A stretch of DNA of 64,000 nucleotides from Nitrospirota bacterium (GCA_021825295.1 JAKAHV010000007.1:1-64000), one strand, 5' to 3'; numbered from the stretch's first letter, positions 54,807-57,775 are shown. Notes: generated by a model from the letters alone, not told the origin. Made by a program: numbers and translations.

Positions 54807-54869
54807 CTAACAGGGGTGCACGCAGACGGAGCCCACGACGCGTGGCCTTGCGTATCTGATCTTCTTCAT
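54807..54869 (-). CDS. 20-aa small peptide MKKIRYARPRVVGSVCVHPC (leader or RiPP-precursor candidate), copy 1
   Basis: ATG...TAG with SD aaggag; five nt differences from copy 2, three synonymous and two conservative. Confidence 0.7.
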   Translation of the reverse strand: MKKIRYARPRVVGSVCVHPC

Positions 54870-54897
54870 CTCTTTTCCTTCTCCTTCCCTCCAAAAT

Positions 54898-54921
54898 CCG
54901 GGCCGCCGGATGGCGGCCCGG
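54898..54921 (-). terminator. Strong hairpin after small paralog 2 (terminator/attenuator)
   Basis: CCGGGCCGCCatccGGCGGCCCGG followed by ATTTTGG on minus strand. Confidence 0.65.
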
Positions 54922-54944
54922 TTGTATCAGTTTTCCTATGGGCC

Positions 54945-55838
54945 CTAATGGCCGGGGACCGAGACGTTTACGCCGGTTGTGGGGCCGTTTATGGCAAGAG
55001 GGCAGACTGCGTAAAAATAATTGCCATATCTATCCGGGCCTACATGCGCAGCGTTGCAGGTGATGTATCCACCGGGGTACAATTCGTAGCCCTCGCCGGA
55101 GCACCCTGTAGAACTGGGGCACGCATAGACATAGTAGGTCCCGGTAGCAGGCAGGTCTATCGTGTAGTTGCCGTTTGAGTCCGTGGGCAGTTCCGCCGGG
55201 TACTGTGGCGAGTAAACGGTATTGACGGCTGTCCCCAGGGAGGTGGAGGCTGCCGCATACACAGTGGAGCCGCACTGGTTGCTTCTGGGGCTAAGACGAT
55301 GGCTCGTGCAGGGCTCCGCGGTCGCCTTCACGAACCATCCGGCCAGCGGTGCGCCGCTTGTCGCCCCCGTGACCGTGCCTGAAATCGTTACCGCCGGGCT
55401 GAACAGATGCGCGTATACGGTGCCCAGGCTTGTCACCGAGCCGTCGGTGACTGTAAGGCTCGGGGCATTGCCGGCCAGATGCCACGTATAATCCCCCGGC
55501 CTGGGCGGGCCGTATTCCTGCCAGGAGGCCGGAACAGCCGTGAGCGGCGCCCTGCGGATGATGCGGATGCGATAGATGCCGTCCGGCACGCTCACCGATA
55601 AGTTACCGTTGGCGTCGGTAGGGCCCAGTATGTACTGGGCTGTCCTGAAATACTTCCCCATTATGGGGTTTGTGTTCGATGCGTCCTGCAGGTAGATATA
55701 TGCGTGGTCAAGCGGCTGGCCGGACCCGCTCCCGTTATAGAGAAACGTCCCTGTGATGGTGCCGTTTGCCATCGCGGGCGCGGCGGAAAGGGCCGCGGCG
55801 AGCGCAAGAAAGACAAAAAAGAAAAAATATTTTTTCAT
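54945..55838 (-). CDS. Exported protein with carboxypeptidase-regulatory-like domains (small paralog 2)
   Basis: Co-linear homolog of 52137-53027; ends NGPTTGVNVSVPGH. Confidence 0.8.
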   Translation of the reverse strand: MKKYFFFFVFLALAAALSAAPAMANGTITGTFLYNGSGSGQPLDHAYIYLQDASNTNPIMGKYFRTAQYILGPTDANGNLSVSVPDGIYRIRIIRRAPLTAVPASWQEYGPPRPGDYTWHLAGNAPSLTVTDGSVTSLGTVYAHLFSPAVTISGTVTGATSGAPLAGWFVKATAEPCTSHRLSPRSNQCGSTVYAAASTSLGTAVNTVYSPQYPAELPTDSNGNYTIDLPATGTYYVYACPSSTGCSGEGYELYPGGYITCNAAHVGPDRYGNYFYAVCPLAINGPTTGVNVSVPGH

Positions 55839-55857
55839 AAGTTATCTCTCCTCTCCC

Positions 55858-57549
55858 TCAATAACCTGGGACAACGATGTTCTGGCCGGCCAGCGGGCCG
55901 CTGACGGCAACCGGGCAGTCGAAATAGTAGTAGTCGCCGCAGGCCTCGCACCCGATACTGGTTGAGCAAGTGGGATATCCGCCTGGATAGCTGGTATTGG
56001 CGAAGTTCAGTTGCGGGCTCGCGTATACGTAATAGGTCCCGGCATCCTTTAGATTGATGGTGTAGTTGCCGTTTGCATCCGTGTACGCCGGATACTTCAC
56101 CTTGCCGCACTCGTTGAAGGAATGGGCGTACGCCCAGTTTCCCGACTCGCACGGCACGGTCGCCGCCTTCACCGCCCATCCGGCAAGGGGTCTGCCGGAG
56201 GCGCCCCTGACCGTCCCGGAAATACTGATCGGTCCGCCGAATACCGTGGTGTTCACCATGCCCAGGCTTGTGGTCTGATTGCTGGCTATGGTAACGGTGG
56301 GCGGGTTGCTGGCGGTCCAGGTGTAGTCCCCGGGGTAGGGCGGCCCGTAGATGGACGCGGACCCCGTCCTCTTCGTGATGCGCATGTAATATGAACCGGG
56401 GGGTTCATCCCCCGTGATAGTGCCGCTGGCATCGGATGGCCCCAGCAGGTGGAGCGCGCTCTGATAGTGGCGCCCCGGGGCCGGCTGGTTGCCTGGCAAA
56501 AGATACGCGTAGGCGTTTTGAAGCGGCTGGCCGTTGTAAAGGGCGGTTGCGGTGAGCGTGCCGTCCGCAACGAATTTCATTATGGTGTTGCTGATGACCG
56601 CGGCATAGACGTTGCTGCCGGGGCCGTCTACCGCTACGCCGGATGCGCCGTACGCGTACGATGTGTTTTCGCCAGTGACCGCGTCAATGGCCACAAGAAG
56701 GTTGCCGTTTGGATCGAATTTTCCGATTTTACCTGTGCCGCCAGAGGTGGTTCCCGTGACATAGACATTGCCGGATGCGTCCACAGCCACGCCTGCCGGA
56801 TCGGAAAGAACGCCTGGCCCCAATCTGTATGTGCCCGAGGTGTAATAAGTCGTGCCACTGGACCCCCACTGGGCGAGATAGTTGCCGTTAGAGTCGAATT
56901 TTTCGACACGGTTATTGTTGGAATCCGCGACATAGACGTTGCCGCCTGCATCCACCGCTACGCCCATTGGGCCGTTAAACTGCCCATTGCCGTAACCTAA
57001 AGACCCCCACTGGACTAAAAGGTGGCCGTTCGGGTCCAGTTTCTGGACGCAGGCGTTATAGTAAAGGGCGACATATATATTTCCTGAGGCGTCCGCGGCC
57101 ACGCCATATACGAACGGCCGGGAGTTTTGAAAGTAGACGTTGAATGTCGCCAGCCAGTTGCCGTTGGAATCGAATTTCTGTATGCGGCCGTTATATGAAT
57201 CGGAGACATAAACATTTCCGGATGCGTCCACAGCAACCTGGCCGGCCGGGGGATATGTAGCGTTAAAATAAAATTGACCGTTGCCTGAGCCTAAAGATCC
57301 CCACTTTGTCAGAAAATGGCCGTTAGGGTCGAATTTTTCGATGCGGTTGTTCCCGGTATCGACCGCATATACATCACCTGCCGGGTCCACAGCCACGCTT
57401 ATCGGGCTGTCATAGCCGAACTGGCCGTCGCCCGTGCCGGAAGAGCCCCATGAAAGCGAATGCGTATAAATATTCGATGCGCCCCCCGCCGCGGCGGTCA
57501 ACAGCGTCAGAAAGACGGATGCGAGTAAGACGGTAAGCCTCTTTTTCAT
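55858..57549 (-). CDS. Exported NHL-repeat beta-propeller protein (paralog 2)
   Basis: Co-linear homolog of 53050-54702; NHL repeats; ends GQNIVVPGY. Confidence 0.9.
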   Translation of the reverse strand: MKKRLTVLLASVFLTLLTAAAGGASNIYTHSLSWGSSGTGDGQFGYDSPISVAVDPAGDVYAVDTGNNRIEKFDPNGHFLTKWGSLGSGNGQFYFNATYPPAGQVAVDASGNVYVSDSYNGRIQKFDSNGNWLATFNVYFQNSRPFVYGVAADASGNIYVALYYNACVQKLDPNGHLLVQWGSLGYGNGQFNGPMGVAVDAGGNVYVADSNNNRVEKFDSNGNYLAQWGSSGTTYYTSGTYRLGPGVLSDPAGVAVDASGNVYVTGTTSGGTGKIGKFDPNGNLLVAIDAVTGENTSYAYGASGVAVDGPGSNVYAAVISNTIMKFVADGTLTATALYNGQPLQNAYAYLLPGNQPAPGRHYQSALHLLGPSDASGTITGDEPPGSYYMRITKRTGSASIYGPPYPGDYTWTASNPPTVTIASNQTTSLGMVNTTVFGGPISISGTVRGASGRPLAGWAVKAATVPCESGNWAYAHSFNECGKVKYPAYTDANGNYTINLKDAGTYYVYASPQLNFANTSYPGGYPTCSTSIGCEACGDYYYFDCPVAVSGPLAGQNIVVPGY

Positions 57550-57679
57550 TTCAATGCCTTTCCTCCCTTGATGGTTTCAAACCAGCGCATTATCATTTTC
57601 TTTTTGGCGAGTCCCCCCTGGGCTGCCCGAATCGCGCGTGGTTTTGCTCCTCGCTACCTCCCTGCAATTTGTTCTTTAG

Positions 57680-57697
57680 TCCCGCTTTGGAACGGGA
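57680..57697 (-). other. Conserved hairpin downstream of small peptide ORF 2
   Basis: minus strand TCCCGttccaaaGCGGGA. Confidence 0.6.
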
Positions 57698-57712
57698 TTT
57701 TTTGCCGCCTGC

Positions 57713-57775
57713 CTAGCAGGGGTGCACGCAGAGGGAGCCTACGACGCGGGGCCTTGCGTATCTCATCTTCTTCAT
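57713..57775 (-). CDS. 20-aa small peptide MKKMRYARPRVVGSLCVHPC (leader or RiPP-precursor candidate), copy 2
   Basis: ATG...TAG with SD aaggagg; same length and frame as copy 1. Confidence 0.7.
   Translation of the reverse strand: MKKMRYARPRVVGSLCVHPC

Follow-up and report, generated by a model that had tools for sequence, protein, structure and literature searches.

A multi-copy family of 20-residue peptides ending in His-Pro-Cys as predicted precursors of the GeoRSP radical SAM system in Nitrospirota

The 64,000-nucleotide stretch of a Nitrospirota genome analyzed here (JAKAHV010000007.1:1-64000; hereafter, the window) carries on its minus strand two open reading frames (ORFs) for 20-residue peptides that end in His-Pro-Cys, designated HPC peptides (Table 1). 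Both translations, the exact coordinates, the Shine-Dalgarno sequences (SDs) and the TAG stops agree with the initial annotation of this DNA, and the two copies differ at 5 of 63 nucleotides, comprising three synonymous changes and two conservative replacements. The SD of copy 2, AAGGAG, is directly followed by a further AAGGA (54880-54876). A degenerate pattern of the conserved residues matches only these two copies in the window and nothing in 100 shuffles. Each copy precedes, on the same strand, an NHL beta-propeller gene and a gene for a smaller exported paralogue, as had been proposed, but the proposed tie to NHL genes does not extend to the family: these genes are a local variant of a wider exported-protein setting around HPC peptides. 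The analysis indicates that HPC peptides are most likely (probability about 0.85) a multi-copy precursor family of the GeoRSP system, that is, predicted substrates of a PqqD-type chaperone and a radical S-adenosylmethionine (SAM)/SPASM enzyme, as judged from co-occurrence, linkage and co-variation.

Table 1. HPC peptide genes and the exported-protein genes that accompany them in the window
Feature	Coordinates	Strand	Details
HPC peptide gene, copy 1	57713..57775	-	MKKMRYARPRVVGSLCVHPC; SD AAGGAGG at 57789-57783; TAG stop
Exported NHL beta-propeller protein, 563 aa, C-terminal CarboxypepD_reg-like domain	55858..57549	-	Downstream of copy 1; PF01436 1e-29, PF13620 8e-07
Exported CarboxypepD_reg-like protein, 297 aa	54945..55838	-	Between NHL gene and copy 2; PF13620 9e-09
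HPC peptide gene, copy 2	54807..54869	-	MKKIRYARPRVVGSVCVHPC; SD AAGGAG at 54886-54881; TAG stop
Exported NHL beta-propeller protein, 550 aa, CarboxypepD_reg-like region	53050..54702	-	Downstream of copy 2; PF01436 5e-51
Exported CarboxypepD_reg-like protein, 296 aa	52137..53027	-	Last gene of the unit; PF13620 6e-08

Scans against Pfam and NCBIfam yielded no model matching the peptide, and an Rfam scan found no RNA family at the ORFs. The window's genome, 2.9 Mb in 65 contigs, contains 16 copies (E = 7.5e-10 to 2e-4), ten of them on the window's contig and six across five other contigs, and the sister genome of a congener (G002) holds 14; copy 2 was the top match in both searches. No copy was found in another congener (G001, 82% complete). 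By a family profile built from 31 copies, with a threshold of E <= 1e-3 per genome, members are present in 29 of 399 genomes spread over Nitrospirota, where approximately 0.4 would be expected by chance, and a search of the whole order returned 16 convincing genomes out of 180. The consensus is MKKxxYvkPkvvGsxxvHPC followed by the stop, with lengths of 18-21 residues; typical members are MKKLTYVKPKVVGTASVHPC, MKKIKYVAPKIVGSAVIHPC, LKKIKYVPPRIIGSAAVHPC and VRKIKYSKPQVVGSSSVHPC. Tyr6, Pro9, Gly13, His18, Pro19 and Cys20 appear invariant among the copies collected by a pattern that demanded these very residues, and the profile search also yields copies with Ala, Ser or Cys at Gly13 and one without Tyr6. 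Only the C-terminal HPC was therefore kept in every convincing copy that was read. Two candidates were rejected: a weak match (E 0.038) in G055, which has no HPC ending, and a viral match (L217), which lies opposite a longer ORF, itself lacks a proper start and was considered a chance hit. A separate viral record, L218 (IMG/VR UViG_3300002231_000542), a putative phage contig with 33% G+C and with ribonucleotide reductase and phage helicase neighbors, encodes at 6695-6757(-) the family member MKKYMKPKVVGSSSVHPC preceded by a perfect SD (AAAGGAGG); the GeoRSP radical SAM was not found in this 78-kb record.

HPC ORFs are selected at the amino-acid level and are equipped with ribosome-binding sites. 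The ratio of nonsynonymous to synonymous substitution rates (dN/dS), computed over 15 core codons for 70 copies in three groups, was 0.12 among 15 paralogues of the window's genome, 0.20 among 10 copies of the sister genome and 0.12 among 45 copies from elsewhere, as expected under purifying selection. Identity by codon position was 0.88, 0.91 and 0.63, the third position being the most variable, and fell to the random level of 0.25-0.31 just after the stop. An SD-like motif precedes the 70 of 72 copies for which a start was assigned, and all three stops are used (TGA in 27 copies, TAA in 24 and TAG in 21). The initial annotation had argued for protein-level constraint from five differences between two copies; the 70 copies make the case solid. 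Homologues occur well beyond the duplication in the window and keep the frame while their DNA diverges, so that neither of the two outcomes named at the time as speaking against the proposal, a lack of relatives outside the duplication or a broken frame in conserved DNA, was encountered. HPC ORFs thus have the first property expected of precursors of ribosomally synthesized and post-translationally modified peptides (RiPPs), namely a short ORF under protein-level selection.

The initial annotation had suggested looking for a radical SAM partner; one is encoded on the contig that carries the window, and its distribution across genomes nearly coincides with that of the peptide. Clustering of the genes near the peptide copies revealed a PqqD/radical SAM set which carries the NCBIfam name GeoRSP and is described by the models TIGR04302 (PqqD-family peptide chaperone), TIGR04303 (radical SAM/SPASM) and TIGR04304 (SPASM domain protein). 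In the window's genome the GeoRSP operon is located at 67.4-69.6 kb of the contig, 3.4 kb past the end of the window and 10.6 kb from copy 1, and consists of genes for a cupin, PqqD, the radical SAM/SPASM protein and a SPASM-only protein, with an ArsP-type permease gene upstream. PqqD (L048:5294-5605(-)) scored 131.4 bits against a cut-off of 100, and the radical SAM/SPASM protein, in which the CxxxCxxC motif is present as CNFKCKHC, scored 549.8 bits against a cut-off of 400. The SPASM-only protein exceeds the TIGR04304 cut-off in five other genomes (G148, G157, G166, G179 and G192). Only 78 nt separate the radical SAM gene of G200 from the start of the peptide that lies behind it, and in G004 and G166 a single co-directional run leads from the peptide through exported proteins, a beta-helix protein, OpuAC-like and PhnD-like binding proteins and a tetratricopeptide repeat (TPR) protein to a YedE-type transporter, a permease, the cupin, PqqD, the radical SAM and the SPASM protein; a ResB-like protein is also found in the operon of G004 and others. 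The small TPR protein of the GeoRSP/YedE operon (L115:7179-7706(-), L131:18054-18578 and L049:13750-14010) has a conserved AGSC(G/S/Q) C-terminus, which represents another C-terminal cysteine motif in this operon.

HPC peptides and the GeoRSP PqqD-type chaperone and radical SAM/SPASM enzyme co-occur and often co-localize. Among the 399 genomes, 24 have both the peptide and the GeoRSP radical SAM, 5 only the peptide, 1 only the enzyme and 369 neither (Fisher p = 1.4e-32); the corresponding counts are 16, 4, 1 and 148 at the level of genera, and 14, 2, 1 and 163 among the 180 genomes of the order (p = 7e-18), both p-values overstating independence because the genome sample is phylogenetically structured. 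G168, which is 66% complete, has only the enzyme. All five genomes found through the peptide outside the phylum sample (G125, G148, G157, G166 and G179) have the enzyme over the cut-off. Peptide and GeoRSP lie no more than 20 kb apart in 17 of the 29 genomes, compared with 1.0 expected. In several genomes with a single copy, both are present although they lie on separate contigs, and this speaks against simple hitch-hiking. The radical SAM tree mixes host families, placing G004 (family f1) with f13 and G174 (f13) with f25, and separating the congeners G364 and G296. Shared descent alone therefore does not explain the association, and the pair of peptide and GeoRSP was probably gained repeatedly. 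Moreover, peptide distances correlate with enzyme distances (Mantel r = 0.47, 0 of 2000 permutations). Genomic association with a peptide-modifying enzyme, the second property expected of a RiPP precursor, is accordingly present.

Several observations besides the phylogenetic structure of the sample weigh against HPC peptides being GeoRSP substrates. GeoRSP is present in G382 with no peptide in the 20 kb around it and no YedE gene, while peptides are present and the radical SAM was not found in G199 (93% complete), G234 (83%) and G251 (74%); G199 has kept a divergent SPASM protein and the YedE gene, and G170 has kept the SPASM protein and not the radical SAM. In the window's genome the SPASM-only protein, which is full-length and adjacent, scores 193 bits against the TIGR04304 cut-off of 300. 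The sole copy of G008 lies on a possibly misbinned 5-kb contig; contig 15 of the window's genome has the identical peptide and upstream frame. Sixteen copies per genome are, in addition, unusual for a RiPP precursor. The last such point concerns homologues of the YedE 'selenium transporter' (TIGR04112): by a split into two classes that was made post hoc by score, with a few partial matches assigned by judgement, the lower-scoring class (approximately 370-405 bits for complete proteins) is found in 25 genomes, each of which has the peptide, and the higher-scoring class in 23 of the 399 genomes, none with the peptide; only the lower-scoring class accompanies the peptide and GeoRSP.

Since the association with the lower-scoring YedE class is at least as tight as that with the enzyme, the peptide may be tied to the transporter side of the operon and not be an enzyme substrate. 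It would then be a companion of a transporter or envelope operon part, such as an unmodified peptide whose Cys and His bind metals or chalcogens or take part in redox chemistry, and would co-occur with GeoRSP through a shared mobile operon. Such a role would fit G199 and G234, which combine the peptide and a lower-scoring YedE without the radical SAM, as well as the operons that carry YedE, PhnD- and OpuAC-like binding proteins, ResB and ArsP_1. However, PqqD together with a PqqE/MftC-like radical SAM/SPASM enzyme has the look of a peptide-modifying system, no second small conserved ORF stood out in these operons (no systematic search was made), the peptide of G200 lies directly behind the radical SAM gene, and the division of YedE into classes was drawn afterwards. 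We consider this explanation unlikely, and the predicted role as a GeoRSP precursor is preferred.

The gene neighborhood of the copies bears on a further explanation, in which the ORF is a regulatory leader, either an attenuator or an arrest peptide, for the exported-protein genes behind it. Many copies are indeed positioned 15-200 nt upstream of an exported-protein gene, and conservation peaks at the C-terminus, adjacent to the stop, as in arrest peptides. According to ORF calls, 59 of the 72 copies are followed within 800 nt by a gene on the same strand; by a crude rule, 49 of these 59 genes (83%) have a signal-peptide-like start, compared with 48% of all ORFs in the loci. A leader would be expected always to lie directly upstream of a co-directional gene and to have a conserved leader RNA. 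Yet the remaining 13 copies have no such downstream gene, others precede genes unrelated to one another (ATP synthase b, a tRNA-modification gene and NikR), and a same-strand upstream gene is present in 65 of the 72 copies with spacing as tight as that downstream. The flanks are at random identity and match no Rfam family, nor would a leader role lead one to expect a radical SAM enzyme in the same genomes. A leader function is thus very improbable. Of the roles that the initial annotation had left open, that of a RiPP-like precursor is strongly supported by the GeoRSP association, and that of a regulatory leader is disfavored by the geometry of the neighbors and the lack of conserved flanking RNA. 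A spurious ORF or a recent functionless duplication, which the shortness of the peptide and its lack of matches in family libraries might suggest, is refuted by purifying selection, and the SDs and the finding of members in many families of the phylum, as well as on a putative phage contig, also speak against it.

The proteins encoded next to the copies define the setting in which a precursor would be made. Among 45 downstream proteins scanned, 29 matched CarboxypepD_reg and 7 beta-helix/NosD; among 45 upstream proteins, 23 matched CarboxypepD_reg and approximately 10 had multihaem cytochrome domains, including CxxxxCH/CxxCH cytochromes. In family f24 (L139, L140, L141, L142 and L144) the peptide has a sigma-54 response regulator on one side and an exported protein on the other; the exported proteins there include HEAT-repeat matches, and pseudopilin-like genes are nearby.

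If HPC peptides are GeoRSP precursors, the PqqD-like protein (TIGR04302) would bind the basic, conserved N-terminal half, MKKxxYxxP, and present the peptide to the radical SAM/SPASM enzyme (TIGR04303), which would modify the C-terminal Val-His-Pro-Cys with the aid of its SPASM-only partner (TIGR04304). This division of labor is very probable. Copies beside exported-protein genes would let the precursor be co-produced with each set of envelope proteins. What the product does is a more tentative matter, with less than even odds for the following proposal. The exported and cytochrome neighbors and the YedE association would place the product in the cell envelope, where it might act with exported Ig-like/CarboxypepD_reg proteins, NHL propellers and multihaem cytochromes; its chemistry can be guessed to be that of a small redox-active or metal/chalcogen-binding molecule, which the YedE-type transporter, periplasmic binding proteins and ArsP-type permease of the operon would handle.

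Three known systems are closest to the one described here. The enzymes are members of GeoRSP by curated score for PqqD and the radical SAM, are encoded contiguously and occur in almost exactly the peptide-bearing genomes; the HPC family differs in that it would supply the precursor of this system, and in being multi-copy and scattered beside exported-protein genes. GeoRSP enzyme matches comprise 758 clusters at E <= 1e-80, with named sources that include Nitrospirota, Desulfuromonas, Geoalkalibacter and Geopsychrobacter. No GeoRSP precursor was found among NCBIfam models or in open-access papers, and the open-access literature yielded no paper on GeoRSP itself and nothing relevant on Nitrospirota RiPPs and missed precursors; the priority of an HPC precursor is uncertain because subscription papers and NCBI family notes were outside this search. 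Mycofactocin (MftA, MftB and MftC) was discovered in 2011 through a short, often unannotated ORF conserved in protein and not in DNA, with an invariant C-terminus and a tie to a PqqE-like radical SAM (PMC3023750), and the HPC case follows a similar logic. However, the radical SAM here scores 170 bits with TIGR03962 (cut-off 265), the mycofactocin precursor model gives no match to the HPC peptide, and HPC genes are scattered, with as many as 16 in a genome. Biosynthesis of pyrroloquinoline quinone (PQQ) by PqqA, PqqD and PqqE is alike in the size of the precursor, PqqA averaging 23 residues (PMC3023750), and in the pairing of a PqqD-type chaperone with a radical SAM/SPASM enzyme; for the GeoRSP enzyme, PqqE (6c8v) is the closest relative of solved structure. 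By contrast, the PqqE model TIGR02109 gives 130.5 bits (cut-off 381), the peptide matches no model, its conserved residues are Y, P, G, H, P and C, and no other PQQ-synthesis gene was noticed nearby.

The window and its genome contain further features. A cobalamin riboswitch (107 bits) is located at 925-1185(+), and a c-di-GMP-I riboswitch (54 bits) at 46147-46224(-), just past an rplS-like gene and with no evident minus-strand gene behind it. A dispersed repeat of approximately 180 bp, 83-95% identical, is found at 42682-42861, 47915-48095 and 59548-59728 and also in L053, L054 and L051, and is present on several contigs of the genome. Two adjoining paralogous exported proteins are encoded at 47026-47880 (284 aa) and 48211-49095 (294 aa), the former without an NCBIfam match.

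RiPP systems with a radical SAM enzyme and PqqD are already known as a kind; what appears to be new is a many-copy set of predicted 20-residue precursors scattered beside exported proteins and unseen by gene finders. A defined 20-residue candidate substrate makes the GeoRSP system directly testable. It is an unlikely, though specific, prospect that a new ribosomally produced redox cofactor or electron, metal or chalcogen carrier, a counterpart of PQQ and mycofactocin, is made from the HPC peptide and serves the adjoining exported multihaem cytochromes and surface proteins in Nitrospirota and, via GeoRSP, in Geobacter-type electroactive bacteria. As the precursor genes are linked to exported multihaem cytochromes and surface proteins, the product may matter for electron transfer in the envelope or for the handling of chalcogens and metals.
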